This document shows, in pieces, positions 1 through 26,278 of a DNA stretch of 64,000 nt. Where the stretch lies: contig OZ004590.1 in assembly GCA_963924555.1 (NCBI GenBank), forward strand, positions 930,001 to 994,000, in the 5' to 3' direction. Below the pieces are notes generated by a model, which saw only the letters and a list, made by a program, of their open reading frames with translations, made no database searches and was not told where the DNA came from. This stretch comes from Crambe crambe (Eukaryota > Porifera > Demospongiae > Poecilosclerida > Crambeidae). The position numbers and the translations under genes were made by a program. The first letter of the stretch is position 1; the number at the start of each line of letters is the position of its first letter.

Positions 1-1456
1 TAGTTCCATAGAAGAAATGGTATAGGAAGTTGCTCCATATTTAAACACTCCATCTGATGTGCTGAATGGCATCCCCACTAATGCAGCAGCTACACCTAGA
101 GGGTCATAGTTCCTTGTAGGAGTGGTGATCCACCATATAATTGCTGTTTGATTAGCAGTGCAAGTGAACACTAATAGTTCTCCATCACAAGCAGCAACAG
201 AGGAAGGAGATAAGGTCAGTGCATCTAACATGAATAGAAAAGATGTGATTACTGAATCTGATCATATTTCATAAACATAAGGGAAAGGAAATACAATCAT
301 AATAAACACACAATGCCTATTCACCATGCAGTACACTATTACATCTGTCACTGAAAATTCATAATATTATCATTCACATGATGATGCTGATGATAAAATA
401 CACTAGCTGCAGTGGAACCTCCAATAAAGGGCACTACAAAGGAGGAAAAATCCCCCAATCTAAAAAGTACCTTTATACACTCTATACAAAATAATCTACA
501 AAAGAGTTACAAAGGACAAAAGGTTGGGTCCCAATTATTCAGAGGCGGTTCCACTCTACACTAAGAACATTCCATAAGGGCAACAGGTGCTCTACATTTT
601 AAAATGATGACACAACATATTATGCAACATAAGGCCTTACACAAGATAACATAACAATGTCCTCAAAGTCTAAGTCTGAGATATGGGTAGCACTAGCAAA
701 GAGATGGTATGGATGACATGAGGTGTTAATTTTTTTGTATGTTTGTTTATTTGTCTATGCAGGTGCAGCAGACCCTTAACTATAGATTTTAACTAGCTAG
801 CTAATTAGACCACTAACTTCATTATGTTTAACTGCAAAAACAATCTTCTTAGGTAGATTACATCCTAGGAGATAACTGGCTAGGAGAATACTTATTGCAT
901 GACTCTGCTATGTGCTCACAAATCATCCGCTGTCTGATTGAACTTTGACCCTGCCATCCAAATGATATAAAAGTGCAACTGTACATGTTCACTTACATGC
1001 ATAAAATGGACAATTTTTCCTCCATCTAGCATGCATGATTAGTGTGTGGGCTCACTTCACTCACCACTACACATGCTAGTTTCCTTCCTCATAAATGTCA
1101 TTAATGCCAATATTCAGGCTAGTCTGATGTCACAGCGATACTGTGAACCCAAGGGTCTGGTGGCATCAATTTAGCATCCATGAATTGTAAATGCTAACAT
1201 AGTTTAGAAAACCTACACTGTAACCTAGCCACCTCTTCTCCACCCCACCTAATGGACATAACCACTGACTCACTGTCTATATAAACACACTGTTATATAT
1301 TGTGTGTGCTCATCAAGACATGATAGTCTTATCAGCACATAAGACTTTGGGGTGGGGCTTTTTTCATACAACTTATCTAAGAACTATATACTTACTACTG
1401 ATTGATATCCATGGTATTAGTAGACAAATAGTATAAAGTCTGTTTTTCTCTGCCAT
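1..1456 (-). CDS. Ig-domain receptor, 5' part only (runs off left edge)
   Basis: Two coding exons are visible. Exon 1 (1396-1456) starts with ATG at 1456 and encodes a 20-residue signal peptide with hydrophobic core TICLLIPWISIS. It ends at a GTAAGT donor in phase 1. Exon 2 (224 down to 1, cut by the window) begins after a TTAG acceptor, also phase 1. It encodes an Ig-like segment with the first cysteine (VFTC) and the core tryptophan (IIWW). It is about 90% alike by eye to the Ig exon of the inverted pseudogene at 10985-11317 and more distant from the Ig exon at 3772-4098. By analogy with the neighbouring intact gene, FN3, CCP and membrane exons should follow outside the window. The start codon lies 71 bp from that of the intact gene on the other strand. 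No lesion is seen in the visible part. Receptor role is inferred. Confidence 0.6.
225..1395. other. Intron 1 of the left-edge receptor, segmentally duplicated
   Basis: No coding exon is seen. Much of this stretch is repeated in the same orientation at 11318-12587 (for example 818-1020 matches 11615-11800, and 1210-1396 matches 12440-12587). The duplication therefore included the intron and upstream half of a minus-strand receptor gene. One MITE lies at 410-556. Confidence 0.6.
410..556. repeat. MITE, CAGTGGAA family (degenerate)
   Basis: The ends are imperfect inverted copies: CAGTGGAACCTCC on the left and GGCGGTTCCACTC on the right. The interior has runs like 'aaaggacaaaagg' shared with the element at 35342-35509. 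Only the right side keeps a flanking TA. It sits in the intron of the left-edge receptor. Confidence 0.5.
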
Positions 1457-1527
1457 TATGGCTCTTCACCTAGATGTATGTACTTTGACCTCTGATGCAG
1501 AATAATTTCAGACTGCTCGATTCAGTG
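1457..1527. promoter_or_regulatory. Bidirectional promoter between head-to-head receptor genes
   Basis: Only 71 bp separate the two divergent start codons (1456 minus, 1528 plus). Transcription start sites are likely to lie inside or across each other's 5' UTRs. No TATA box is visible. The assignment rests on the two signal-peptide exons, each with a phase-1 GTAAGT donor. Confidence 0.45.
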
Positions 1528-4500
1528 ATGTTGCAAAACAACAGTCATCTTATTTGTTTATTAATCTGCTGCATCTCAACTAGCAGTAAGTCTGTAATAC
1601 TAAGCTAGCACCTGTATGCTAATAGTTGCTGTCAGTCACAATTGTTTGCTGCATGATTATTAGCTATATGTTTTTGTTTATTGCTTATGAAGCAAACACT
1701 CTAAAAATGCCATATTAGGAGACTTTGAAGTGTTTGCTTACATAGCTACAAACCCTTCTGCGGCAGTCAATATACTATAAGAGTGTCCACATACTGTTAA
1801 AAGAGTCAGTTTTTGTATCTCTATAATTACTTCAACAAGGTGTGTGGAAATATTGTGGCACACATGGTGGTGAAAGATGGATGCATGTATCATTAACCAA
1901 ACTGAAGTTATGCAGTTGAATGATTCCTAGAATAGTACTTCTTCTCCAGTGGGCAGGAAGTTTTCACTTCAAAGCCCATAGTTTGTAGATATTTGCATAG
2001 AAGACTCTTGCTATTTACCAAATTCTTCTACTTCCTCTTCTCCTCTTTAGACAACTGTAGCAGACTGTCTTGACACCATGCAATTTCAGCATGTCCAGAT
2101 TCACATAAAATGACCCTGCAGTGCTTTTATTAGCACTATGCATAATAAATCCTCTCCCATCCTTAGACAACTGTCTTGAAAGAGGCCTACTGGTACATGT
2201 GTGTGTACATAATAGAAGATACACATGCTCATAAAGTGAAAGTAAAAAATGTGGCCATTGCTATTTTGTGTAAAAAAGAAAAAAGTGTACACATTTGGAA
2301 ATAATGGACAGTTCCAAAGCTCATTAACTTGTGACATGGAACAGCTTTCTTTGATTAAGTAGGAAAGTGAAGGTGTGCACAGGCTATAAACAAAGCTACC
2401 ATAACACACATGATAAACTACTGGGCCATTCACTGTAAAGAAAAGGATTGGATTTGAAACTTGGCAGCTAGCAAACCATCCTCAATGTTATCATGTCACT
2501 GATATTATCATGACACAAAAAAACAACCAAGGTGTTAGGTTATTACTACATAGATCTAGCTACCTATGAACACTAAATTTATAACTACTCACACAAAACA
2601 AAGATAAAACTGATAGATACACGTCATATCAGACAAACAAAATTTCTAGACACCGTAGCAGCCATTTTTTTACATTTAAAGTTGGCACTTAGCACACTAC
2701 AAATGAAATCCAGGAAGTTATACACATGCACTGGTGGTTTAACTGTTTACTCCACACTGCACACACAATGTGTCTGCTATATCTTACATGGAATTCAAAG
2801 CAATGATGGACTGCGATTAATAGAGTCAGACCTTATTATTCCTAACCTAAATACATACCTGTGTGAGTAACTTGCTATGTTCATCCATGATTCATCTAGC
2901 ATGACGTAAATTTTTTATCTCATACAATCCAGCATTCCCTCTATACGTCAGGGACTTTGAACTTCAGTAAAGAAGATTAAATGAATGTTTAGATTAAAGG
3001 GATGATAGTCAATAAGGTCATCCTGCTTAGAGATTATATGAACATGCAAGTAAAATCATAGCACTAATGTAATCAATTCCTCTGAAAACTATGATGTACA
3101 TGTGCATAATAATAATAAACAAGTTAAACACAGGCCTAACAGGCTAGTGATCTATATAGGCAACTGTATGAGCATTGATACATCAACATTATATACTTGC
3201 AAATCTTACAACCTGAAGTAGACATAGAATAAAGTTAATAATTGGACAATATAACTTGTAATGAGTGATTGTGTGAAGTAGCTATAATTATTATTGTCAA
3301 TTCACTTATTATAGTGTAGTGGGCCCAGGGAGGTTGGTAAAGACCAGTAACAGACATAAATTCCTGTACTCAAAGCGTCTTTTCCCACTCCCTTCTGTCT
3401 GCCTTGTAGCGGGTTGGAAGATGACACACTATTTTTAAACATGTTGAGTTAAAGGTAAAGGATTATAGCATAGTCAATTTTGTGGTTTAAAAATCATACC
3501 ATTTGAATGAATAAGTTGCTTGAGGATGATGATGATGATGAGGATGATGGGCCAGATGAAAATGAGGTGATTTTAGAAGTCACTGTAAAATGACACTACT
3601 TTGTCTTCTGCTCTTCATACTTGAGTCCTAGCACATTGAAGGTGCAGTTGCTGACAGTAGGAGAGAAGTATTCTGGAGTTGATTGTGATATCTGACCCTA
3701 TCTCCTTATGTTGAAATCTTTCTTGATATGCAATCATGTAATTCACTCTAACTATGATTCTGTTATCACAGATGCACTGACCCTATCTTCTTCTGTTGTT
3801 GCTTGTGATGGAGAACAAGTAGTGCTTGCTTGCACTGCTAACCAAACCTTTGTGCGATGGACTGTTTCCACTCCCACTATGAACTACACAAATATAGAAA
3901 CAGACAATAATGATATGGAGCAGAGGCTAGCAGATGGTGTATTGATATTCAGACTTGCTTCTTACACACCTTCACCTTTGGAACTAGTGGCGACTGTGAC
4001 CGTGAGTGTCAGTCAGAACTTCAATGGAACATTGGTAGAATGTGCATCACTCATATCAGGAGTTGTAAGGAGGAAAACTTCAGTGCTGACTCTTGCAGGT
4101 AAATTTTGTGGAACTAGTAATTAGTGTGGACATAATGATATGGAGTGAGTTGGATGCTCTGAATATGATTACTTGATATTAGTGCATAATGTATATACCA
4201 TACAGTGGGGATAAATTATCATGGATTTAGTGGTTTTGAAAATTAATGCACTATGGTCATATTTCTTTAAAATCAAAAATATTTTATGATCTATTTTACT
4301 TTTAGTCAATTCAATAGGTGAAATCTTATGAATTTCGGCCAAAAACTATTTCAAATGAAAGGAAAAAAAATTATGCTAAATAAAAAGGCCATGTAGGATT
4401 AGTACTTTAACAGTTTCTGTTAACAAAAATCAAAATTATGCTGCCTTCAATAATAATCCCTACATCACTGCCTAAACCAAGCAGAACACTTTTATACTGA

Positions 4501-7500
4501 CATGAACCATAGGCATGATACATTGAGCAAAGAAATTGCATCACCTCAATCCTCACGGCATTAATATGCAGGCACTCAGTTTCCTTCATCAGAGAGTGCG
4601 GTAGCACTCTCTAAGTAGGGATGGCAGGTCAAAGTCCATAGGACAGTATAAACTAAAAACTCTTCTTTCTCTTCTACCCTTACTCTACAGGTTCTTAGAA
4701 GGCTACAGTGAATTATTATATCTACAAAGAAGAGAGGAGAATGTTCAAAAGCCAAAAATTCATTCGCCAACATAAGAAAAAAACGAGTTCTAAAATTGAC
4801 TTTTCGTTCTTTTTCTTTATAAGGCCACATCAAATTAATTACTTGTTTATCATCCTAATTTCTTCAAAAATTAGGAGAGGGGGGGAGGGTTTTATTTTTA
4901 TTTTTTATTGGTTTCCATGGCAATTATTTAAAAAGCTATTATGAAAACATACAAAAAGCTGAAGTTCCACAAAAAAAAGCTAAGTTAAAAGTAGTAGCTG
5001 CACACTTTATTTGAAGAATAACAAACACCATAATTTAATAGTTGCCAAAACTGAAATTACACTGAAAATCATGCCTAAATTTCAAATAAAGTACACCATG
5101 CACATGCTCAGTAGAAATAAAATTAAAAGTCCAGAAGAGCAAAAATTAGGAGAGGGAGGGGATGATAAACAAGTAATTAAGTTGACGTGGCCTAATAATA
5201 AGGATAATAATAATAATAAGATCGACGTACCGACTTACTGGCTATAGTCATCAAAATTCTGCTTTGGCCATCTGTTAGAGCGGCACCTAGAGGCTGATCT
5301 TTTGCTATTAGTTTTGACTAAGGCTCTACTTCACTATTCGATAGCACTCGGAACACAGCTGCTAATCTTTCTACGCCATTTTGAAGGGGGCGGGGCTTAT
5401 GGGCGGAGTCACGTAAGCTTAAGTTTAGCTATAGCCAAGGTCTTCATTCATTATCTGATGATGTTCCAGTCACTCCTTGCTGAATTACAGTACAGATGCT
5501 CATCCTATAGTAGCATTATAGCCAGTACTTGGCTGTAGTGTAGTCAGCTCACTTCACCATGCCGTGTACATGTCATTTACATTGCTGTTGCTGTAAAGTT
5601 TTATATCAACAAAACTTAAATAGCTAAACAAATTCTTCAACCAGAGACACTGTATGTACCTACAAAAGAGGTTTATGTAGAGCTGGCTTTGTATAGTACT
5701 GTACTGTAGCCTCCCTCATTCAACTTCAAGCACTAAGAAAAAGGATAGAAACAAGTGAGCGTAAAAAATTCCTTCAAATAAAAAGGTTAAGTAGGGATAG
5801 CCTAAAATCTAGCTGGGCTATCTATAATGTGCTGCAGCCTCGTATGAAAAAAATCTTCGCGATATTACCTCATAAAAGGGGTGGGGCAATTAATAGCAGT
5901 TCTCCTCATATAACACCTGCACAGGATGTGGCCATTTGATGGCATCCACTATTATGATCACTACACCAAATGCATAAACTCCCCATACTCCTCCCTCAAG
6001 CAAGACATACGTACCATCTCAATAATTATTTCAGTGATCACATATGTAACAATTAGCTAATGCTGTTCACTTTTTAAAATGTTCACTCCTTTCAGTACTC
6101 CATTACACTGCAGATGATCATCCTTCAAACTCTCCTCCCTGAACAGAATGAAATACTGATCATTAAATAAATTTAGTTCAATCAAGGAAGCCTTTAGTGT
6201 CTATCAATTTTCATAATCACAAAGAAAAAGAATGCAAACAAGTGAATGCAAAAAATTTCTTCGAAATAAAAATGTGAAGTAGGGATGCTATTATAACTGC
6301 AGCTTCATTATGAAAACCAAGTACTGCAGCATCGAAGCAGTATGGCCCAAAAATCTAGCTAGAATATGTATTATAACTGCATGCAAGAGAGTGAACTTAG
6401 TGAAGTGACCCTTACCCATCATCAAGTACGAGATACTATTCCTACTTCACTCCCATGATCAAGGGCCAAGGGAGTGAAGTAGGAATAGTATCTCGTACTT
6501 GATGATGGGTAAGGGTCACTTCACTAAGTTCACTCTCTTGCATGCAGTTATAATACATATTCTAGCTAGATTTTTGGGCCATACTGCTTCGATGCTGCAG
6601 TACTTGGTTTTCATAATGAAGCTGCAGTTATAATAGCATCCCTACTTCACATTTTTATTTCGAAGAAATTTTTTGCATTCACTTGTAATAAATATGTATG
6701 CTTGCAGCATTAGTATTAGTATTAGTGTATTAGTAGGCGAGTGAAGCTTTTTTGTGTTTCATGTATGGAAATACTACTGTACTGAACTGCTCTCTGTCAA
6801 AATCTAGTTCCTCATTCTCTTTTGTACAGATGACCCTACATCATTTAGTCTGACACTTCCTAACACTTCAGATCTGGAGTTTGGGAGGACTAGTATCACA
6901 GCCATTAATGTATCCTGGACACCACAGGATGGTGTCAACTATGTCATTGCCATCAGTCCACCTATTCCATATAACAATGTTTCAAGGACTAGCATAACCA
7001 TACCCAATGTCCCCTTCAACACCCAATACAACATCACTGTAGGGGCCATCAACCGTTGTGGTGCCAGCTACACTGCATCCACCTCACTAAACTACAGTAA
7101 GTCATTGTAGCAAATGTTGGCTAAATGAGTAGTCATTTAACTTTCATGTAGCTCGCTGTGTCTTCCCTTCCATCAGTCAACATGTGGTATCAAATGTGAC
7201 AGATGGGGCATCATCCTCTGAAGGTGCTGTCCTCGTATTATCATGCAAAAACTCAATTCAGTCACTGGTTGGTGTGGACAGAACCACATGTGTTGAAGGT
7301 GTATGGATACCAGATATCAATGGAGTCACGTGCAGAGGTATGGATTATCTTCATTGAACTTTATAATAGCCACATTGTGGGGCTAGTGGGTGGGGGGGGG
7401 GGGGGGGGGGGGAGGGGGGGTCTCTTCAGACTGCAGCACTGCAGCAAAAATAGTCATCCCATTTTTTTCCTGTATTGCAGGAGAGTGTGGGTTACCTGTG

Positions 7501-8038
7501 TTTGCTGATGGTGTGGTGGTGGTTGATCACTTCACTACTACATTTGAAGGTTCTTCCTTCAACTTCACTTGCCCCACTACCATCATCAGAACTGACTGCA
7601 CTGCAGAAGGTCACTGGAGTCCAGATCCTGCCACATACATGTGCATCAATGCCAGTGCTACCACAACTGCTGCTGATATGACAACTGATGGTATGCATAG
7701 AGAACTCTGTCTGATAGTGAAGAAGTACACAACTATTTATGTTATTTTCTATACTAGCTACAGCATGTGCTTCTGTACCAGTGAGCTCTACCACTGTGGT
7801 GACTGTGGTCTGCAGCATTGTGTTCTTCATTGTTGGAGTGGTGGGTGGGTTTGCTGGTGGTGTTCTAGTTGTGTATTGCTGTGGCAAGTGGCAGTTGGTT
7901 CACCAGAGGAATCGCAACCTCCAACCCAGCCAGCCTCCACCTGCTCCACTTTATGAGGATGTCATTATGACCACTGTTGTCAAAGATAAAGATGAGCCGG
8001 AACTAAAGGACAATGTAGCATATGGACATCTCAGGTAG
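1528..8038 (+). CDS. Intact cell-surface receptor: signal peptide, Ig, FN3, 2 CCP, TM, ITIM-like tail
   Basis: Six exons, all joined in phase 1: 1528-1585 (signal peptide, core LICLLICCIS), 3772-4098 (Ig-like; VLAC, RW and VEC mark the fold), 6830-7096 (FN3; VSWTP and YNITVGAINRCG), 7152-7337 (CCP with four Cys and Trp), 7481-7690 (second CCP), 7758-8038 (TM and tail). Total 442 codons. The membrane segment is Val/Gly-rich (SIVFFIVGVVGGFAGG, about residues 360-390) and is followed by CC-GKW and a tail of about 50 residues. The tail carries LYEDV and, at the end, VAYGHLR, which fits the ITIM consensus. Several NxT glycosylation sites lie in the ectodomain. CCP2 lacks five residues (ADGFS) kept in the related copies at 16318 and 9871-10070. 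Likely a type I adhesion or recognition receptor; ligand unknown. The palindrome at 6238-6686 and a G-run at 7391-7420 lie in its introns. Confidence 0.75.
1586..3771. other. Intron 1 of the intact receptor; no gene seen
   Basis: AT-rich stretch of 2.2 kb between the signal-peptide exon and the Ig exon. Short ORFs here have no family resemblance and no splice context. A GATGAT run lies at about 3524-3548. A second ATG with a leucine-rich start at 3590 (MTLLCLLLFILES then stop) has no suitable phase-1 donor and is not used in my model. Confidence 0.5.
4820..5194. repeat. Inverted-repeat element with 37-bp arms
   Basis: The left arm at 4820-4856 (starting TAAGGCCACATCAA) and the right arm at 5158-5194 (ending GACGTGGCCTA) are near reverse complements, sharing ATTACTTGTTTATCATC. 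The interior is AT-rich without coding potential. It lies in intron 2 of the intact receptor and is probably a non-autonomous transposon remnant. Confidence 0.5.
6238..6686. repeat. Perfect palindrome, 217-bp arms with 15-nt spacer
   Basis: Arm 6238-6454 is the exact reverse complement of 6470-6686 as far as I can read, with spacer 6455-6469. It sits in the intron between the Ig and FN3 exons of the receptor. A diverged relative of the left arm and its outer flank is found at about 5729-5850 ('cactaagaaaaaggat' onward). The similarity extends beyond the left arm to about 6213 but not beyond the right arm, so the right arm looks like the inverted copy. It could be a recent fold-back duplication, a hairpin element or an assembly chimera. 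Confidence 0.85.
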
Positions 8039-8950
8039 CTGCCAAGCAATATAATATGTGTTTTTCTATAATTATCTCATAGAGAATCTGATGTGGTGGA
8101 AGATTATTTAGACACTTTATTATAAATTAATTCTCGTTATATACACAAGTATGGTTTCTATACATGTGGAATGTCCTTGTCCAACATCATCCCTTAGCAA
8201 TAGATAGATTACAGATGTGGTACTAGCTACACATCTTGTAACAGGGTGTAACCTTGAAATTAGGTCAGGGTCTATGCAATCTGGTGCAATCTGTGGATGA
8301 AATTAGCAACATCTCCAAGATTCAATGAATCAGTATGCTATGATCTCTGTGGTAGTTAGCTAAGAATCAAACACTATGACTAGCAATATTATGTTAATGT
8401 ACGTAAGTACATGAGTCAGCTGAATATGGATATCCCAGTTAACTTTGATGTTGTGTTCAGAATTACTCTACTGTACTAAGATTGCTGTGTGAAATTCTGA
8501 TTTATATATATTTTTTCGAAATCCAAGCTCAAAATATTGGTCTGGCCAAAGTTGGACTGGCCTTAATGGAGGTTAGACCCCTGTGTAACTAGCTATCATT
8601 CTTTGACTTATGTTGACAGACTATGATCAGATCCTGGCCCAAATATATTCCTTCATGCAAACTATAACAATGAATATGTAGAAACCTATACTTAGAGCCC
8701 AACTAGTATTAAAGCTACTGTAGCTACCTGATCTTTAATTGCATATTTGGTTAATACTCTATATGGAAATTATGCAAGGATGAAGCCATGCATGTTACTG
8801 AATGATAACTACCTAGCTGACTGCATCCCAACTTCACAACACTGCATGATTTTATGCTAGCCAGATATATATTTTTTGAATAGTGGCTACTACAGTGCAT
8901 ATTATGCTCTACAAAACTGTGCTTCCTTTCCTTTCTGACAACTGAATCAG
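8039..8950. other. Non-coding spacer with a duplicated block
   Basis: 3' UTR and intergenic or intronic sequence after the first receptor stop. The block 8622-8735 ('cagatcctggccc' onward) is repeated directly at 9400-9522, showing the second terminal exon sits inside a tandem duplication. No other coding signal is seen. Confidence 0.5.
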
Positions 8951-9317
8951 ATGCTACTGATAGAGAAGGTAATAGCTACTGAACTCTGTCTGATAGTGAA
9001 GAAGCACACAACCATTTACGTTGTTTTCTATACTAGCTACAGCATGTGCTTCTGAACCAGTGAGCTCTACCACTGTGGTGGGTGTGGTCTGCAGCATTGT
9101 GTTCTTCATTGTTGGAGTGGTGGGTGGGTTTGCTGGTGGTGTTCTAGTTGTGTATTGCTGTGGCAAGTGGCAGTTGGTTCACCAGAGGAATCACAACCTC
9201 CAACCCAGTCAGCCTCCACCTGCTCCACTTTATGAGGATGTCATTGTGACCACTGTCGTCAAAGATAAAGATGAGCTGGAACTAAAGGAAAATGTAGCAT
9301 ATGGACATCTCAGGTAG
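8951..9317 (+). CDS. Spare receptor end: microexon plus second TM/ITIM-like terminal exon
   Basis: An 18-nt microexon (8951-8968, encoding DATDRE) is flanked by CAG and GTAATA. A full terminal exon (9037-9317) follows, with the same CTAG acceptor, Val/Gly-rich membrane segment, LYEDV and VAYGHLR stop as 7758-8038. Both are phase 1-1 compatible with the CCP2 exon that ends at 7690. They could serve as an alternative 3' end of the intact receptor, or be the surviving tail of a paralogue whose ectodomain was deleted. The frame is open. The tail differs from the first by a few residues (EPVSS, VGVV, DELELKE). No ectodomain exons lie between 8039 and 8950. Confidence 0.5.
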
Positions 9318-9514
9318 CTGCCAAGCAATATATATATTTTTCCATAATTATCTCATAAAGAATCTGCAGCTGAAAATTTAATTATTAGTGACTGGCTATA
9401 TTATCAGACCCTGGCCCGAATAAAATCCTTCATGCAAACTATAACAATGAAATTATTAAATATGTAGAAACCTACATAGAGCCCAATGAATAGCTAGTAT
9501 TCAAGCTACTTTAG

Positions 9515-11317
9515 TTACCTGGTCCATATGTCCTTTAGTTCCAGCTCATCTTTATCTTTGACAACAGTAGTCACAATGACATCCTCATAAAGTGAGGCTG
9601 GCTGGGTTGGAGGTTGTGATTCCTCTTGTGAACCAACTGCCACTTGCCACAGCAATACACAACTAGAACACCACCAGCAAACCCACCCACCACTCCAACA
9701 ATGAAGAACACAATGCTGCAGACCAGTCACCACAGTGGTAGAACTCACTGGTTCAGAAGCACATGCTGTAGCTGGTATAGAAAAAAAAAAGAATGACAAT
9801 CCTTCACTGCTATAAGTACATGAGTACATGTATACCTTCTTGACCAGTAGAGCTCGTCACATTAGTAACAACAGTTGTTGTGGTAGCACTGGCATTGATG
9901 CACATGTGTGTGGCAGGATCTGGACTCCAGTGACCTTACACAGTTCTGGTGATGGTAGTGGGACTCAAACCATCAGCACAAGTGAAGTTGAAGGAAGAAC
10001 CTTCAAATGTGGCAGTCAAGTTATCCACGACCACCACACCATCAGCAAACACACCCTCCTGCAATTAACACAGCACTATACTAGGGATTTGGCAGAGGAC
10101 TCAGTCCCAATTATTTTTTGCTAACCTAGTAGCTATTATATAGAAGTGACAAGACTAATGGAAATAGTCCTGCACAATGTCTGGACTCCATACACCTCCA
10201 ACACATGTGGCATTGTCCACACCAACCAACACTCACACTAATATATGAGAATGAGATGACAGCGCCCTCAGGGGCTGATACCACACCCACCACATTAGGT
10301 ACCAGTCTCACATGAGGACTGATGGAAGGGAAGACACAGTGAGCTACATGAAAGTTAAACTACTCATTCAGCCAACATCTGCTACAATGACTTACTGTAG
10401 TTTAGTGAGGTGGATGCAGTGTAGTTGCCACAACGGTTGATGGCCCCTACAGTGATGTTGTACTGAGTGTTGAAGGGGACATTGGGTATGGTTATGCTAG
10501 TTCTTGAAGCATTGTTATATGGAATAGGTGGACTGATGGCAATGACATAGTCGACACTATCCTGTGGTGTCCAGGATACATTAATGGCTGTGATATTAGT
10601 CCTCCCAAACTCCAGATCTGTGTCAGGAAGTGTCAGACTAAATGATGCAGGGATATCTGCAGAGGATGATATACACATATGCAACTAATTAGCTATACAC
10701 AGTTCTATTCTCCCATTGATGGTGAGGGATGGCCAAAGTCCTAAATGACAATCCAACAACTAGCAAGATAGATTTCCACAGTACTTTGTGGATTGTGGGT
10801 GCTTCTCTACAATATCCAGTTGCCTGGCTGGAATAGCAAAATCTCAGCAAGGAGATGAAGAAGTATGGGTCTAAACGCTAGCCATAGGAAAGGCATCAGA
10901 GGAAAACCTCTAAAATCTATAGTGGCCAAAATGAACACATCTACTTGGGACAGTATCATATACATGTAATATTATCAACATTACATATAAGAGTAATATT
11001 TGCAGTCTCATTCCTTCCACTTTCTCCTCCTTCACGATTCACTACAGTTCCATCAAGACTCCTAGTAGCTGTTGTAGTGAGAGTGGACACTAGTTCCATA
11101 GGAGAAGTGGTATAGGAAGTTGCTCCATATTTAAACACTCCATCAGATGAACTGAATGGCATCCTCCCCACGTCTGAAACAATTACAGCTAGAGGGTCAT
11201 AGTTTCTTGTAGGAGTGGTGATCCTCCATATAATTGCTGTTTGATTAACAGTACAAGTGAACACTACTAGTTCTCCATTACAAGCAGAAAAAGAGGAAGG
11301 AGATAGGTTCAGTGCAT
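9515..11317 (-). pseudogene. Inverted receptor copy, pseudogene (Ig, FN3, CCP, CCP, TM)
   Basis: Exon remnants follow the order of the intact gene on the opposite strand: Ig 10985-11317 (open), FN3 10396-10656 (open), CCP1 about 10190-10350, CCP2 about 9830-10070 and TM/tail 9515-9772. CCP1 carries a frameshift after SAPEGAVISFS and has lost a cysteine. CCP2 has lost bases at its start and has an in-frame TAA next to the GHWSPDP block, where A has TDCTAEG. The membrane exon has a 2-nt loss after STTVVT that shifts frame, and the tail lacks the SQPPPAP stretch and the VAYGHL motif. No signal-peptide exon is present: the duplicated flank ends at 12587. Ig and FN3 exons are well preserved, so the damage is recent. 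Expression as a protein is unlikely. Confidence 0.75.
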
Positions 11318-12587
11318 CTAACATGAATAGAAAAGATGTGATTATGGATATCTAGGAAATGGTGAGTGAGGGAGTTCTATTAAGTCTAAGTCTGAGATAT
11401 GGCATGGAGAGTTTGTTTGTTGTTGTGTGTGTGTATGTGTTTTTATTTCCATCTATTTGTGTCGTGAACTAAGAACTTTTATTATACCTTCAACTTACAA
11501 AAAGATAACTGAATAACAAGTGATAAAACGCAACACATACTGAGCGTGCTCAAACACAAAAGAGGAAGTAAAGAATACCACAATTTGTCCAATTATCCAT
11601 AGGTTCAAGCACTATATTATGTTAACTGCAAAAACAATGCTCTGAGGTAGATTTGATTTCTAGATCCTAGGAGGAGAATACTTATGCTATGTGCTCACAA
11701 ATTGTCCACCGTCTGATTGAACTTTGACCCTATTATCCAAACAATCGAGAAGTACAACTTTTAACTGCACATGTGCACCTACGTGCATAAAATGGACGAT
11801 GATACATAATCATGATATGGCATACTTGTCCTTCTACTAGCATAATTAGTGTGAGGGCTCAATTACTTACTACACACATGCTAGTTTCCTTCTTCATAAT
11901 GTCATTAATGCGCAGCACATGCAAATGACCTTTTACCCAATATCCAAGCTAGTCAGCTCTAGCCTAGCCATAGAGTTCAAGTTGTAAGTGTTGCTGAAAA
12001 AACTGCAGGTAGCTAGTGGATTGTGAATCTTCATCATCTACTCATATCAACAATTACATCTGCATTATTAGTAAAACAACTTTTTGCAAAAAAAAAAATG
12101 GTTACATCGAGTGGGCATGATTATCCAAAAAAGGATGTGGTTATGGCAAAATGGGCATGGCCAGATAAATTTTCCATACACAAGCACACAGATATTTTAG
12201 AACCCCCCTCACAAAACTCTGGTTACAGACCTGTCCACTAACCAATGTCTGTATATGAACAGCTGCCTATAATTGCCATAGATTATGAAATGCTCTACCT
12301 ATAACCTCAATGAGTGTGTGAGTGGTGCTATACTGGAAGTTGTGCATACTTCTTTAATCTTGTCTAGCCAATCAGCCCTTATCTCTGTACCTTTGAGTGC
12401 TACATCACCTCTTTCTTGTCAGTAGGTCTACACTATTATTCTAGCCACCTCTTCTCCTGGATATATTAACTACTGACTCACTCTAAGCTATTGTGTGTGC
12501 ACATCAAGATCATGGACTTTGGGGTGGGGCATATCTGCTTTTTTCATACAACTTATCTAGAAACTATAGCAGCTAGCTATATACTTA
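11318..12587. repeat. Segmental duplicate of 225-1395
   Basis: Matches the upstream intron of the left-edge receptor in the same orientation, with many small indels. Examples are the 'ctgcaaaaacaat' block at about 11627 versus 833 and the 'gactttggggtgggg' block at about 12525 versus 1344. The match stops at the signal-peptide exon donor (12587 against 1396), where receptor tail sequence begins instead. No gene is seen. Confidence 0.65.
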
Positions 12588-12800
12588 CTGCAGCATTGTG
12601 TTCTTCATTGTTGGAGTGGTGGGTGGGTTTGCTGGTGGTGTTCTAGTTGTGTATTGCTGTGGCAAGTGGCAGTTGGTTCACCAGAGGAATCACAGCCTCC
12701 ACCTGCTCCACTTTATGAGGATATCATTGTGACCACTGTTGTCAAAGATAAAGATGAGCTGGAACTAAAAGACAAGGTAGCATATGGACATCTCAAGTGA
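12588..12800 (+). pseudogene. Receptor TM/tail fragment, 5'-truncated
   Basis: Begins abruptly inside the membrane segment (CSIVFFIVG) without an acceptor and runs through the tail to a TGA after KVAYGHLK. A 15-nt stretch around LQPSQ is missing and the second motif reads YEDI. It follows directly on the duplicated flank, so it is a recombination product rather than a working exon. Its 3' flank is shared, in inverted orientation, with the fragment at 16938-17102. Confidence 0.7.
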
Positions 12801-12835
12801 ATTCCTATAAGTATTATTCTGCTCAGTGCATTGCA

Positions 12836-12872
12836 CAAAAAGGGCTACAAAAAGGGCTACAAAAAGGGCTAC
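12836..12872. repeat. Short tandem repeat, 12-bp unit x3
   Basis: Three copies of 'aaaaagggctac' in the 3' flank of the truncated receptor tail. The inverted partner near 16900 has a single copy. Confidence 0.7.
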
Positions 12873-13254
12873 AGCCATTAGCTATATTTAGGTAAGGATT
12901 ATCTCATTTAGATAAGTATAGTTTTCAGACAAAGAAATAATATAATGAGCTATGTTATGCACAGCATGCAGGTGACAATGCATAGTAAAAAATAAACATT
13001 AATTCAAATCATGTGGCTGGTGTTGAGCTATGCATGCACAATCAGGAGTCTGGCATCACCAGCCCAGCTTTTCTTCTTGCAATAAACATGCATGTTGATT
13101 TATGCCCAGATGGTGTCTCACCAACATTAATGCTACTCTACGTGACCAAATATAGCAATCTGATTGGCATCATAGCTGCATGCATGGGCATCACAAGTAA
13201 TTGATGCTAGAGATACCAGACCACTTTTCTTCCCACTCCCCAAGCAAAATTGAA

Positions 13255-13830
13255 TTTAATTTTTAATAGAACATGGGGGCTTCACAGTTTATGCATGCTA
13301 GCTAGACCATTTTTCTTCCCACTCCCCAAGCAAAAAGAAGAAAAGTTAGGCTGGCAATGCCAGACTAGGTTTTGCCTTATAGCTAAGTTATTCCTACACA
13401 ACTATTGCTGTACCACTTTCCAATAACCAAACATCCACACTTTTACACAGATTCAAAGGTTTTGGCTCAGGAGAACAATTGACTACGCATGCATGTTTCC
13501 TTCACATGCTTCCTACACATTTATGTCCACTACAATTCTGAATTTCTCATCGAATGAAGTTAGTGAAGATACAGACAGCTGCATAGGAAAGTAGTTGTGC
13601 TATTTATGTAATGATCAGATACATTCTGAAGGTGTTACACTCTCACTGTAGCTCTGCAGCTAGCTATATAGAGCCTACCTAGTTCCTACAGATTTTTTGA
13701 TCCAAGTAAAGGGTTTGACAGGTCTTGGCTGAATTCCACCAAGGCTATAGGATGAAGTATGTCCAATGATATCAAAAAAATAAAAAGTGGCCTGGTAGCT
13801 GTACCAGCCATAATAGTGCCTATATTAGCT
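13255..13830. repeat. Segmental duplication, copy 1
   Basis: Matches 17155-18105 in direct orientation: 'gaacatgggggcttcacag' through 'ggctcagga', then a block starting 'attgacta' through 'gcctggtagctgtac'. Neither copy has convincing coding content. A further block at about 15625-15790 matches 18195-18350. Confidence 0.65.
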
Positions 13831-16000
13831 AGCTATAACCAGGGGAGTAAAGATTTGGTGGGGCTACATGCTGGAAAAAAATTTGACCAGTGGATTTTCA
13901 TATTTGCACCCCCACACAAAATATCCTAGTGTATTTTGAATCCCTCCAGTGGTTTTGGTATCCCCTTTTTGTACCCCCAATATTTTGTACCCCAACACAA
14001 AATATCCATCCATCCAGTGGTTTTGGTGTCCCCGTGGCATGATTTACTTACTCAATGGATTTGGCACTCTATACGTAATATAAATAGCTAGTGATGTACA
14101 TAATGATCGTGGCTGTTTCTTTGCATGTTGTGGGGTAAAGGGTTGGGTACATGTGTACTGCTTGGATTTGTGCTCATGGATAATATTCCAGTTGTAGTTC
14201 TGTTGTACATATTTTAGCTGATATATGAACCTTAACTTGTAAGCAAGGACATGAAGCAGCTGAACTCTTTTCATTTTAACCATAGCAGTTTTTCCAAGGA
14301 AGGGAGAACGACTCTAGCTAGTCTTACAGAAGTGAAACAAAGGTTGCCACTAGTCTAGAGCAGGAAAAAAGAATGTTCCGACAGAGCTTGCTGAATGATG
14401 CAATTAGCTAGCTAAGACGAAGCAGCTATAACAGATAGCCTATCAATAGCTAAGTAGCTAGTAGAACAGCTAGCAACATGCGCATTAAAACCTAGCAATT
14501 ATAGCTATCTAAGTTAGTAGCAGGGTCTCCAAAGTTTCAGATTTTATCCAAAGACTCAGATTTTTATACACTCTGTTCAGTATTTGGACAGGATTTCTCC
14601 TGCACTAGACTAATACTCAGATTTTTTCAATTTTTATGTAAAACAAGTGTACAATAAATGGAAATATTAATGTTGAGTTAGAGTTGGTGTGGATACTCTG
14701 ACATCTCTGCTTATACAGTGTCAATGAGGATTTGAAGGCTTCATTAGAAGATTTTCATTAGCCATATGCACCCATAATTTTTTTCACAGATTGACTAATG
14801 GCCTATTAATTTGTATACAGATTTTCTTTGGATTTTTTTTGCTATTAAAAGTTTGGATTTTCTCAAGGACCATTCAGAGTTTTCAAATTTTAACTTTGGA
14901 AACCCTGTAGTAGCTAGCTAGAAATTGTAGCTAGCTTCAGGCTAAAGTCACTAGCTAGCTTCAGGCTAAAGTCACCTCTGGAGTTTATATCCTTAAAAAA
15001 CAGGGGGTGCAAAAATGCCTAAGGGGACATGGAGTGTCAATTTTCTTCTATTCCTTATCTGTGAATCTGTCTGTCATTATGGCAGAAGACAGCCTTCAGT
15101 CCTGCAGCCTTTCCAAAAGTGGCAAGAATTTATTCCACGGGGCAATTAGCTACAATGGTTCGATCACAGCACTGTAATCTTTTGCATTATACAGTAAATA
15201 CTAAGCTTCTCTCCATTAATTTTTGAATGGTGGCAATGGATAGTGTACAGGCTATAAACTCAAACTCCCTTTATCCTGTGCCCCAGCAAGATCTTCATAA
15301 CCGATTACTCAATAATAATTATGGTAATGTGTATTACCATTGCAATGTTTCCTGTATTCATTTCAAGTGAGATATCCATACTTTTGACCTCATGCAAAAT
15401 CACTTACTGTATTGTCATTGCATATGTCAATAGCCATTGAGGCGAGATTAAAGTCTGTGGTGAAAAATGATTATAGTATGTATTAGTAGTGCTCTTGACT
15501 AACCCATTCCATTCCATTCCATTCCACCATTTCATTCCACCATTCCATTCCACCATTCCATCCCACCATTCCATTCAACTGAATAAAGACACCCTAATCC
15601 ACTAGTGGATTTGGTAGGGGGGTACAAAAATAGGGGGTGCCGAATTTCCTGTAACACCCACACCTTTTTGATGACCACACCCATTATAATTAACGAAGTC
15701 CAATCAGTAGCTAGGTACTTTTTCATCTGCTTGCCTTGGCCCTCTTAAGAGAAGATATGATTGGCCTTGCAATGCATGCTAGCTACCACATAGTACTTCA
15801 GCCAAAACCATGGCAAGAGTTTTATCAACTAAGCTCAGCAAAACAATGATGCTAGGATACTATTATTGGTTCTTGGGGAAAATTATAATAGTGACTCATG
15901 ATAAGATCATGGCTCCTGTCTAAAAAACACATTAAGCTCAAACTAGCGAGTACCCACAGAAACTCTGCATGCACCCCAGAAACTCTGCACACACGTGTGT
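13831..16000. other. Repeat-rich non-coding region between receptor fragments
   Basis: No gene is supported. It contains direct repeats of 'cacaaaatatcc' around 13913-14010, a pentamer microsatellite (CCATT type) at 15504-15574 and TAGCTAGC runs. Short ORFs lack homology, codon signal and splice context. Confidence 0.5.
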
Positions 16001-16064
16001 CCACTGAGTGGTTTGCAATCTGGGCTTGTAACCAGGAGACCATGAGATCGAGTCCTACCAGTGA
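16001..16064 (+). tRNA. tRNA-like sequence, probably SINE head or decayed tRNA
   Basis: 'gagtggtttgcaatctggg', then 'cttgtaacc' (anticodon-loop-like TGT) and 'gagatcgagtcctacc' (B-box-like T arm) are in tRNA order and spacing. The acceptor stem does not pair well by eye and the B box is off consensus. This fits a tRNA-derived SINE or pseudogene better than a working tRNA-Thr. Confidence 0.3.
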
Positions 16065-16317
16065 CATATGTAAAGGGTAAAGTTAAAATCGAAATGTTCA
16101 TACAAAATTAGATTGCATAAAAATTCAGTTGTTAATGTGCAAACTTTAAGCGAAATTTAATTGTGCAAACATTTTGATCTTGTACCCGGTGTTTATTCTT
16201 CCTTTTCACATGCATTAATTTGTCATCTAGCACACTGGCCACCAGTCCACCAAGCTGAAAATAGGTACCTGGAATCAAATCAAACTTTGATTATAATTCA
16301 GGTTCTTTTCTATGCAG

Positions 16318-16636
16318 ATGACCCTACATCATTTAGTCTGCATTATAACGGGAGAGTGTGGGTTACCTGTGTTTGCTGGTGGTTGATAACTTCACTGCTA
16401 CATTTGAAGGTTCTTCCTTCGACTTCACATGTGCTGATGGTTTTAGTCCCACTACCATCATCAGAACTGATTGCACTGCAGCAGGTCACTGGAGTCCAGA
16501 TCCTGCCAAATACATGTGCATCAATGCCAGTACTACCATAACAACTGCTGCTGATATTATAACTAAATCAGATGCTACTGATAGAGAAGGTATTGGCACG
16601 CAGCTAGCTATAGATACATGTGGGCATCACAAGTAG
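16318..16636 (+). pseudogene. Receptor fragment: FN3 start fused to CCP2
   Basis: A TATGCAG acceptor leads into the first eight FN3 residues (DDPTSFSL). These are fused within a few bases to the CCP2 exon, out of frame. The CCP part then reads in another frame (FEGSSFDFTCADGFS) and runs into DATDRE without the intron that precedes the microexon at 8951. The deletion removed most of FN3 and all of CCP1. Not translatable as a receptor. Confidence 0.7.
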
Positions 16637-16937
16637 TTGATGCTATAGAGACACCAGACCACTTTTCTTCCCACTCCTCAAGCAAAAGAAGAAAAGCTGG
16701 GACTCCTGATTGTGCATAGCTAGCTCAACACCAGCCACATGATTTGAATCAATGTTTATTTTTTACTATGCGTTACCACCTGCATGCATAATATCAAGGT
16801 TTGATTTGTATCCATGCATGGTAATTCACTTCTGTTGTCGTACCTATAGCTCATCATTACATTATTTCTTTATCTGAATACGCCTAATATAATGGCTGTA
16901 GCCCTTTATTTATACGCAGAATAATACTAATAGGAAT

Positions 16938-17102
16938 TCACTTGAGATGTCCATATGCTACATTGTCCTTTAGTTCCAGCTCATCTTTATCTTTGACAAC
17001 AGTGGTCACAATGACATCCTCATAAAGTGGAGCAGGTGGAGGCTGGCTGGGTTGAAGGTTGTGATTCCTCTGGTGACCAACTGCCACTTGCCACAGCAAT
17101 AT
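16938..17102 (-). pseudogene. Receptor tail fragment, inverted
   Basis: Reads from CCGKWQLV through LYEDV and VAYGHLK to TGA. A one-base loss in the 'gttggttcacc' stretch shifts frame and the membrane part is missing. The 3' flank (16690-16937) is an inverted duplicate of 12801-13070, pairing it with the fragment at 12588-12800. Confidence 0.7.
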
Positions 17103-24738: not shown

Positions 24739-26079
24739 TTAGGTTCGGAGGGTGTCGTATCTGTTGGTTCTGGTCTCCCTTTCTCCTTCCCACTTTGTTT
24801 TCTCATCAGTGGTGAGTATCTGCTCCATAATTTGCTGCATGACCTGGTCACAGTCTCCAAATATCCTCACTCCAAGGGCCTTCCCATCCTCTTCTCTGCA
24901 ACACAAGTCATCAAATGCCGTCTTCTGCCGATTGACAATGACTAATCTGAGAGGTTCTTTTCCCATTGTCACAAGATTGCATGCAGGCACTACTTGCATG
25001 GTAGTCCCAAGACTAAGTATCAAATCAGCCTCTCTAGCTTGTTTTTCAGCAGCTTTAATGATGCTCTCTTCAAGGTTATCTCCAAAGTTGATGATGCTGT
25101 CCTTCAAGTGGCCACTGCAGGAGCTGCGTTCACATCTCCTCCCAGTGCGGTGGTTCAACCCACAGGTCTTGCACTGGATAGCATGTTTGGGCTTCTTGAC
25201 ATCACTACAGCCTTCATCTTCAATCTCTTCAAAGTATTGGCTGGCAATATCGTCAACGACGTAGAAGGGTCGATGATACCTGTGGCCACACTTCTCACAC
25301 ACTTCAATAAATACATTGCCATGAAGTTCAGCCAGAGAGTCATGGCTGACTCCAGAAAGCCCATGCAAACCATCTCCATTCTGGGAAATGATGTAATTTA
25401 ACAGACCCAGATCCATCAATTTGACCAGGCTTTCATGAGTGTAAGTGGGCCTCAGGTCTTCATAAGGCACTCCATCATCTTCATCTGGTTCATCACTGTT
25501 AGTATCATCACCAAGTAAACTTCCCACTTTTTTGGTGACTGCTTCTCTGTCCATTTCTGTCCATTTTCCTCCCTTTCCACGATAGTCTCCAATGCCAGCA
25601 GAGGTGGAGATCCCTGCTCCTGTGAACGCTATGCAGTGTCCAGCATTTCTCAACATTGACACTATTTTAGTCGATGCCTCTTCAAGTGCAAGGACAGAAT
25701 CGTGCTTTTCTACAGTTTTGGCAGCTTCTTTGAGCATTGTTTGCTCTGCTGAACTCATCCTGATGGTCATGTTCTTGCGATTTCGTCGACGAGCATTCTT
25801 CATCAACTCCTGCCAGCACTGTTCGTGGAAAACTGCTTCACCTGATACAGACCATTCAACTGCTGACAGAGCTAAGAATGAGGTCAAGTCTGCTCTAGTT
25901 GGCAAGCCAGCCTTAATCTCTGTCCTGGGTTGATAATGGGGGTCAATTTTGCTGCTACTGATCGTGCAGATCTTAAGGGAGCAGGTTAGAATATGATGCT
26001 TGCTGCTTCGCTTTGCAGAAGGACTACTATCAGCCGCTCTTTTCACCGGTTCATCTCGGACATGCAAAGATTCAGCCAT
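24739..26079 (-). CDS. Sirtuin, class IV (SIRT6/7)-like NAD-dependent deacylase
   Basis: A single uninterrupted frame of 446 codons, unusual here because most neighbours have many introns. The catalytic core (about residues 150-430) shows GAGISTSAGIGDYRG for NAD binding, QNGDGLH with the catalytic His, ELHGN, a zinc-binding CEKC with later CKTC and CERSSC cysteines, INFGDNL and LGTTMQV. These features match SIRT7/SIRT6-type enzymes best. In QNGDGLH a Gly stands where SIRT7 has Cys. The N-terminal 130 residues are Lys/Arg-rich with RRRNRK, as expected of a nuclear enzyme, and are not otherwise recognised. It would remove acyl groups from lysine using NAD. The gene ends 217 bp from the convergent nucleolin gene and starts 199 bp from the divergent MOK start. 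Lack of introns could reflect an old retroposition. Confidence 0.9.
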   Translation of the reverse strand: MAESLHVRDEPVKRAADSSPSAKRSSKHHILTCSLKICTISSSKIDPHYQPRTEIKAGLPTRADLTSFLALSAVEWSVSGEAVFHEQCWQELMKNARRRNRKNMTIRMSSAEQTMLKEAAKTVEKHDSVLALEEASTKIVSMLRNAGHCIAFTGAGISTSAGIGDYRGKGGKWTEMDREAVTKKVGSLLGDDTNSDEPDEDDGVPYEDLRPTYTHESLVKLMDLGLLNYIISQNGDGLHGLSGVSHDSLAELHGNVFIEVCEKCGHRYHRPFYVVDDIASQYFEEIEDEGCSDVKKPKHAIQCKTCGLNHRTGRRCERSSCSGHLKDSIINFGDNLEESIIKAAEKQAREADLILSLGTTMQVVPACNLVTMGKEPLRLVIVNRQKTAFDDLCCREEDGKALGVRIFGDCDQVMQQIMEQILTTDEKTKWEGERETRTNRYDTLRT

Positions 26080-26278
26080 CTTGCGCGAACTAGGGGCACG
26101 CCCAAAACATTATAATGCTTACTCAGCATGCATGCATGTATGCAAGAGCTGTTCATTACATCATCCATATTTCTTGATCACCATAGCAACAATAATAGAG
26201 ATGGATAGACGTACCCAGTACTTGGGCTCTAAGAGATGACGATCCACGGTTCCTAAGACTAAAAATCGGGACTGCAAT
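26080..26278. promoter_or_regulatory. Bidirectional promoter, sirtuin / MOK
   Basis: 199 bp between the sirtuin ATG (minus) and the MOK ATG (plus). The sirtuin side has CpG-containing sequence (ttgcgcgaactaggggcacg). No TATA box is evident. Confidence 0.45.

Follow-up and report, generated by a model that had tools for sequence, protein, structure and literature searches.

Allorecognition candidates of sponges, cnidarians and ascidians have, according to one review, no conserved proteins in common, yet ITIM and ITAM motifs and the signalling pathways behind them are where cnidarian, mammalian and intervening systems are said to converge (PMC12065747). The FcoR proteins of Botryllus are described as consisting of a V-type Ig domain, a sushi domain, two C2 Ig domains, a transmembrane (TM) segment and an ITIM or hemITAM, and are encoded at 53 loci with neighbouring, co-expressed pairs (PMC12065747). 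The Hydractinia Alr family is given as 41 genes with V-set and I-set domains (PMC11999971). Sponge aggregation factors have been put forward as multigene self/non-self candidates (Grice 2017, as cited in PMC12065747); they are described as an extracellular proteoglycan complex.

We analysed a window of the demosponge Crambe crambe, i.e. the whole 64,000-nucleotide stretch, together with the related copies in the genome, in which a silicatein-type CGASYAF site, with cathepsin-type CGSC sites elsewhere, agrees with a demosponge origin. We found what is probably a clustered, diversifying array of type I recognition receptors of the ITIM type. Their architecture, as predicted from the sequence, begins with a signal peptide and an Ig head; an FN3-Sushi-Sushi stalk and a single TM segment follow, and the short tail carries an ITIM pattern. 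Compared with the FcoR definition (V-type Ig, sushi, two C2 Ig, TM, long tail), the array has one Ig, one FN3, two Sushi domains and a short tail; like Alr, it is a clustered V-set family with ITIM-type tails. Among the papers listed by searches of open-access PMC, none describes this architecture in its title or the beginning of its abstract.

Gene Content and Opposed Gene Pairs

An earlier note had described one intact gene with phase 1-1 exons, a spare terminal exon, an inverted pseudogene and three fragments, and all of these are borne out: The intact gene has six exons with AG/GT at every intron border, introns in phase 1 throughout and a single 442-aa open frame ending in VAYGHLR, while the pseudogene carries stops and frameshifts and yielded no signal exon in a search at E<0.05. 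The "divergent copy at the edge" stands insofar as a minus-strand Ig exon lies at 1-224; what had been missed is its relation to the intact gene. Because a signal exon is located at 1456-1396, the edge copy is the divergently oriented, head-to-head partner of the intact gene, which is new relative to that note. The features are as follows:

1..224, minus strand: 5' part of the class B Ig exon of the partner gene (the gene extends beyond the window to C13:927749; C13 is the contig of the window)
1396..1456, minus strand: signal-peptide exon of the partner, MAEKNRLYTICLLIPWISIS; phase-1 donor at 1399 or 1396
1457..1527, no strand: 71-bp stretch between the opposed start codons, proposed bidirectional promoter; holds ACTTTGACC
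1528..1585, plus strand: signal-peptide exon of the intact gene, MLQNNSHLICLLICCISTS
3772..4098, plus strand: predicted V-set Ig exon, class A, of the intact gene (by the fold of the family; the modelled member is class B)
6830..7096, plus strand: FN3 exon of the intact gene (Pfam)
7152..7337, plus strand: Sushi-1 exon of the intact gene (Pfam in family members)
7481..7690, plus strand: Sushi-2 exon of the intact gene (Pfam in family members, weak fold match)
7758..8038, plus strand: TM/tail exon of the intact gene with PLYEDV and VAYGHL (ITIM pattern); stop at 8036-8038
9037..9317, plus strand: spare TM/tail exon, open
9530..11317, minus strand: inverted pseudogene with class B Ig, FN3, broken Sushi-1, Sushi-2 and tail exons
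12588..12800, plus strand: tail-exon fragment, frameshifted
16318..16589, plus strand: fragment, start of an FN3 exon fused to a Sushi-2 exon
16938..17102, minus strand: tail-exon fragment

The partner gene spans C13:927749-931456 and is itself broken in FN3, Sushi-2 and tail. Within the window, blocks of 114-300 nt recur beyond chance, with 88-99% sequence identity.

The opposed arrangement recurs: Eleven of 12 partner-type signal exons face one of the other type, with start codons 52-88 bp apart. The opposed genes may share a promoter and be co-expressed. Moreover, among the Ig exons whole enough to be classed, class B is found on 8/9 partner-side exons vs 1/8 on the other side (Fisher p 0.003). 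Both the narrow spacing in 11 units and this bias would be expected if the two products of each opposed pair had to dimerize with one another and formed a binding site from their two V domains. However, of the eight units in which two signal exons and two gene bodies are all present, only two have both genes intact, and each of these two has the identical Ig class on both sides; none of the remaining 4 of the 12 units contains two intact genes. The count of 2/8 weakens this obligate-heterodimer idea, which we consider quite improbable and which, as a general rule for every pair, is rejected.

Domain Identity and Fold

In a Pfam scan of the 442-aa window protein at E<=10, fn3 was the only match (E 5e-4, below the curated cut-off), leaving the Ig and Sushi exons unnamed. 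Since Pfam alone was unable to name these exons, family alignments and folds were used; alignment A1 includes 32 of 33 rows (C13:927749 omitted) and A3 26 of 27 (C13:800595 omitted). Sushi-2 has a Pfam match in 16/25 family members and a weak match by fold to complement Sushi domains (best E 0.04), and Sushi-1 is recognized by Pfam in 2/26 members and by its cysteine pattern. For the Ig exon, at most 6/32 members match any one Pfam Ig family (best E 0.0015), and a profile search against solved structures gave only weak matches of about 25-40 residues, the targets being light chains of antibodies and one antibody construct (best E 0.0013). By fold the Ig match is clear: The modelled head adopts a predicted V-set fold, a point that the earlier note had missed, with fold-match lists that leave room for other families.

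Family Size and Exon Exchange

The genome-wide search at E<=0.01 yielded 74 matches for the tail, 40 for Ig and 47 for FN3, which are matches and not genes. Exon borders of the copies were placed by a simple scoring rule. A single-copy family is rejected by these numbers, and assembly duplicates are rejected as well, as the copies differ in sequence and sit on one 7.57-Mb contig. The proposal of a birth-and-death receptor family is supported. The copies are many and occur in both orientations, and 7/19 of the five-exon genes are broken. The proposed shuffling of domains through phase 1-1 exons likewise holds in the form of exon exchange between copies, as shown by sequence comparison, although class A as a clade is not rejected in FN3, Sushi-1 or Sushi-2. 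Median amino-acid identity among the C13 copies is 0.47 for Ig, 0.92 for FN3 and 0.89 for TM. Inverted copies might serve as donors for gene conversion, which would homogenize FN3 and tail, whereas the Ig classes remain distinct.

Probable Diversification of the Ig Face

In one Ig class, B, the inferred change is concentrated on the binding-type face, a feature absent from the earlier note. The M2a test, for which no loops were named beforehand, used 10 of 12 class B exons (two exons of broken genes were omitted, and for four of the ten the gene is disrupted elsewhere, in a different exon), and the face signal persists when it is repeated on the five from intact genes. M2a was run in our own code, which for 10 sequences gives an M0 omega of 1.17; IQ-TREE gives similar values of 1.14 and 1.17 for 9 and 12 sequences. 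Recombination and alignment inflate the outcome of these selection tests, and other parts also score: 2dlnL is 41 for the full tail exon with leader, 11 for Sushi-2 and 8 for FN3, and in intact genes FN3 and Sushi-2 still give p 0.02. Class C reaches 16.5 (with sites 1 and 12 off the face), class A 7.2 and residues 61-110 of class B 2.0; the value of 2.8 for the C3 Ig is not significant.

A two-rate test of loops against framework, with loops picked by eye from the alignment and hence not blind, is borderline for class B (p 0.05); class A loops give a non-significant 1.23, class C 0.92 and C3 0.48. Across 11 hand-chosen within-class pairs, which include exons of broken genes, pN/pS is 1.06 on the face vs 0.63 in the rest, a contrast with Fisher p 0.015, the face not being significantly above 1; for class B alone the values are 1.17 and 0.78 (p 0.12). 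The head may bind a cell-surface ligand via its C-C'-C''/FG face, which would be driven to change.

The Tail and Its ITIM Pattern

The ITIM-like tail claimed earlier is supported by VAYGHL of the window gene, which fits (I/V/L/S)xYxx(L/V/I), so that an Ig-fold ectodomain is combined with an ITIM pattern in the predicted cytoplasmic tail, as in ITIM receptors. This short motif is found in its strict form in 24/33 open tail exons (24/27 on C13, 0/5 on C3 and 0/1 on C17); an overlapping tail-exon scan counts 22 VAYGHL. The C3 and C17 tails read VAYGHF or VAYGHS and keep NVAY, and VAYGHF also occurs in two otherwise intact C13 genes. Tyrosines of the tail would be phosphorylated and recruit an SH2 phosphatase, and binding would thus damp the response.

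These tails also bear on a different reading, in which adhesion or developmental receptors were expanded by drift and what resembles an ITIM serves instead for sorting or adaptor binding as an NxxY site. The N-V-A-Y of the tail also fits NxxY, the C3 and C17 tails retain precisely this part, and the broken five-exon genes agree with birth-and-death, which can be neutral. Nevertheless, the class B face signal in intact genes and the strict ITIM, which is retained both on C13 and by distant copies located on C14, C21 and C5, render this reading unlikely. Recognition receptors with ITIM-type tails are our preferred explanation.

Possible Targets

The threshold at which a cell responds to self, non-self or microbes would be set by receptors of this kind. 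Allorecognition is our first guess among these targets and a plausible one: Allelic V-set heads would bind themselves or each other across individuals, and the ITIM tail would permit fusion on self. The general plan shared with Alr and FcoR as well as the clustering, exon exchange and face-focused change are in line with an allorecognition locus, but V-set genes are abundant across sponges, with 594 (text) or 564 (table) given for Dysidea avara (PMC12909245), so the fold alone says little; we hold this reading as possible and tentative. The same sequence evidence, including all signs of diversification, fits equally well with microbe or symbiont receptors that are diversified in an arms race and set tolerance through the ITIM, and Ig- and Sushi-domain genes are reported as regulated after LPS in Halichondria panicea (PMC8242945). 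As no microbial ligand signature was seen, and as a diversified V-set face and opposed pairs would be more usual in cell-cell protein recognition, we rate this as somewhat unlikely.

Returning to allorecognition, a more specific form, in which divergent, co-regulated V-set/ITIM pairs with a V class differing by promoter side and diversified CDR-like faces make up a sponge self/non-self locus, is doubtful. If true, V-domain recognition would be coupled to inhibitory signalling in paired genes in sponges besides cnidarians and chordates. A locus in which V-set heads and Sushi stalks are combined with ITIM-type tails and opposed pairs would extend the ITIM/ITAM convergence to sponges. The array is a concrete candidate for sponge self/non-self discrimination, and exact exons and a short candidate promoter are now in hand for testing this long-open question. 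Even with a microbial ligand, it is an animal receptor array whose members exchange single exons and in which only 52-88 bp separate the opposed starts.

Comparison with Known Systems

Sponge aggregation factors are defined by Calx-beta domains, which the Pfam scan of the receptor protein at E<=10 did not return. The Ig-domain receptor tyrosine kinase of Geodia cydonium and the sponge TIR-Ig receptors are likewise sponge Ig-domain receptors; they are described with a kinase or TIR signalling part where the array has an ITIM-type tail. Vertebrate ITIM receptors (KIR, LILRB, PD-1) share the Ig head, TM and ITIM, and in PD-1 the head is likewise V-set and the ITIM, VxYGxL, is similar; the sponge receptors differ by their Sushi/FN3 stalk. 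By sequence, only weak and short matches among solved structures, to antibody light chains, were found for the sponge receptors. Hydractinia Alr is similar as a clustered V-set family with ITIM-type motifs (PMC12065747, PMC11999971). It differs in that grafting genetics belongs to Alr, whereas the sponge array is known from sequence. Alr stalks are built of Ig domains and are not known to contain Sushi or FN3. Botryllus FcoR/fester resembles the array in V-type Ig and sushi domains, TM, ITIM, tens of clustered loci and neighbouring pairs (PMC12065747), the latter being present in the sponge genome sequence as opposed gene pairs. However, FN3 and two Sushi domains stand where FcoR has one sushi and two C2 Ig domains, and both sponge partners belong to one family, with narrowly spaced, opposed starts. 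One system is found in a chordate and the other in a sponge, and the likeness between them rests on architecture.

Organization of the Receptor Family

The intact gene that an earlier note had proposed in this window (C13:930001–994000) proved to be real: six exons (signal, V-set Ig, FN3, Sushi-1 (S1), Sushi-2 (S2) and TM/tail), joined by introns that are all of phase 1, encode a 442-aa product with the tail YCCGKWQLVHQRNRNLQPSQPPPAPLYEDVIMTTVVKDKDEPELKDNVAYGHLR, and every further copy listed there was found in the window. The Ig–FN3 intron carries two repeats:

window 5193–5600: 408-bp repeat
window 6238–6457 and 6467–6686: perfect inverted repeat, its 220-nt arms separated by 9 nt

The 408-bp repeat is 100% identical at at least 38 other genome places (40 of 1409 candidates scored), which gives it the look of a mobile element that spread in a burst very recently; the inverted repeat may be a hairpin element or an assembly fold-back. 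Past 947.1 kb on contig C13 (17.1 kb in the window) no family match occurs among the matches listed, and frames there resemble other genes by eye: a sirtuin-like 456-aa frame at 24739–26109 (minus strand), and long frames at 35997–39139 in which kelch repeats seem to precede a GTPase of the Roc-COR type.

Genome-wide searches (143-Mb assembly, 119 contigs) show how far the family reaches, with counts that refer to matches and not genes, some being pieces of one exon. The tail exon query yielded 74 matches at E≤0.01 (C13 45, C17 10, C3 9, C14 6, C21 2, C5 1, C9 1). The FN3 query yielded 47, on C13 and C3 only, and the main cluster reaches down to C13:710.8 kb; the Ig class A and class B queries gave 40 and 56, with weak Ig matches on C17, C9, C5 and C12. 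Across the analyzed C13 and C3 stretches, 27 gene groups show Ig-FN3-S1-S2-TM in this order, 17 of which passed an exon-level intactness test. Within the contiguous, gap-free stretch C13:798500–994000 (195.5 kb), 12 of 19 five-exon genes are open throughout when their exons are joined, ten of them with an assigned signal exon. As a side observation, C17, C14, C21 and C5 carry the same TM and tail module downstream of exons without a match to this ectodomain, in the manner of a wider receptor superfamily.

Of the 33 tail exons that are open, 24 carry the strict ITIM-type pattern (V or I)xYxxL (C13 24/27, C3 0/5, C17 0/1); tails on C3 and C17 have VAYGHF or VAYGHS in its place, and the distant copies with other ectodomains on C14, C21 and C5 read IAYGQV, IAYGQI and VSYGPV. 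YED occurs in 29/33. Judging from this motif, the tail would recruit an SH2-phosphatase.

The source animal is most likely a demosponge: elsewhere in the genome, a silicatein query matched short exons on contig C15 at up to 78% identity. Three silicatein-like copies lie about 5 kb apart at C15:871.8–883.0 kb; the one copy read there contains CGASYAFS, where a serine replaces the cysteine of the catalytic site. CGSCWAF, CGSCWSF or CGSCYAF stand in further matches to this query.

Head-to-Head Units and Exon Exchange

Minus-side genes (partners), which are opposed head-to-head to plus-side genes, have their own signal exon of the MADRNRLYTICLLIPWISIS type. A search of the contiguous C13 stretch at E<0.05 detected twelve of them: eleven are opposed to a MLQNNSHLICLLICCISTS-type exon with start codons 52–88 bp apart, one of these units (854105) having a stop in the signal exon, and the twelfth (810077) has a decayed MLQNNSHLICLLICCISTS-type neighbor readable by eye. 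ACTTTGACC lies between the start codons in 10/11 units, and the whole 195.5-kb stretch contains 24 copies of it; the natural reading is that the opposed genes of a unit share a putative promoter. Eight of the twelve units have a signal exon and a gene body on each side; two of these eight keep both genes intact, and six keep one. None of the remaining four has two intact genes:

C13, unit 810077: both sides broken
C13, unit 818057/818142: without an assigned body
C13, unit 819025/819078: without a body on the minus side; 822422, an intact gene, may be part of this unit
C13, unit 885969/886022: inverted as a whole; one stop in 877752; without a partner Ig

Class B Ig exons occupy 8/9 partner-side versus 1/8 other-side positions (p 0.003), in a tally that omits two broken Ig exons (812283 and 854105). 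In the only two both-intact units (C13, 909 and 921 kb) the two partners agree in Ig class, B+B and A+A, and the six one-intact units have classes that differ between sides, one including an unclassable Ig. This pattern (p 0.036) was spotted after the fact and may reflect chance or conversion.

On the exon trees, Ig class needs 7 (FN3), 7 (S1), 5 (S2) and 9 (TM) changes versus minima of 3, 2, 2 and 3, which follow from the number of Ig classes. In AU tests of three Ig classes across these four exons, the class was rejected as a clade at p<0.05 in 9/12 cases, class B in all four exons; class A as a clade was not rejected in FN3 (0.37), S2 (0.33) and S1 (0.27). Exons have thus been exchanged among genes, and the uniform intron phase of 1 allows a transferred exon to stay in frame.

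Diversity and Likely Selection in the Ig Exon

Averaged over pairs of C13 exons, pN is 0.287 for Ig, 0.041 for FN3, 0.095 for S1, 0.101 for S2 and 0.072 for TM, and in class B Ig (11 exons) pN exceeds pS (0.144 versus 0.112). Comparison of M2a with M1a on 10 class B Ig exons gave a 2dlnL of 52.8, with 14% of codons at an omega of 6.7 and nine sites above 0.9 (residues 27, 29, 31, 40, 46, 50, 55, 99 and 101). Placed on the strands of the model, they map to strand C next to the core Trp30, to the C′–C″ region and to the FG loop. V domains usually bind with this C/C′–C″/FG face, and the nine sites would fall on it, their facing being deduced from alternation with Trp30.

The class B signal is kept in gap-free columns, in residues 1–60 with their own tree and among five intact genes; residues 61–110 alone give none (2.0). 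Signals elsewhere count against it: 2dlnL reaches 41 for the full TM exon, 11 for S2, 8 for FN3 and 6 for S1, and in the other Ig classes it is 16.5 (C), 7.2 (A) and 2.8 (C3). When the unalignable leader is removed in 12 intact genes, the tail value drops to 1.0, and FN3 (8.2) and S2 (7.6) persist (p 0.02). In 11 hand-chosen within-class pairs, pN/pS is 1.06 on the face versus 0.63 elsewhere (contrast p 0.015); because of this value of 1.06, the whole Ig face is not proven to be above 1. When loops were tested against framework, class B reached p 0.05, and no other class was significantly above 1. We therefore claim for class B a change concentrated on the face, which has good support, and positive selection that likely acts on some sites.

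Comparison with Known Systems

The earlier observation of a receptor cluster is confirmed and extended. From its sequence, the array probably comprises recognition receptors; a role in allorecognition proper is possible, though less likely. V-set genes are numerous in sponges (PMC12909245), so that what is new here is the specific architecture together with the tail common to several ectodomain types, the exon-wise exchange and the opposed pairs. Among the sources consulted, the closest described systems are Botryllus FcoR (PMC12065747) and Hydractinia Alr (PMC12065747, PMC11999971). The domain order of FcoR, as described there, differs from that of the sponge receptor, which is therefore not an FcoR member; if the tail is indeed an inhibitory motif that recruits a phosphatase, the sponge receptors would by analogy work like FcoR and Alr.
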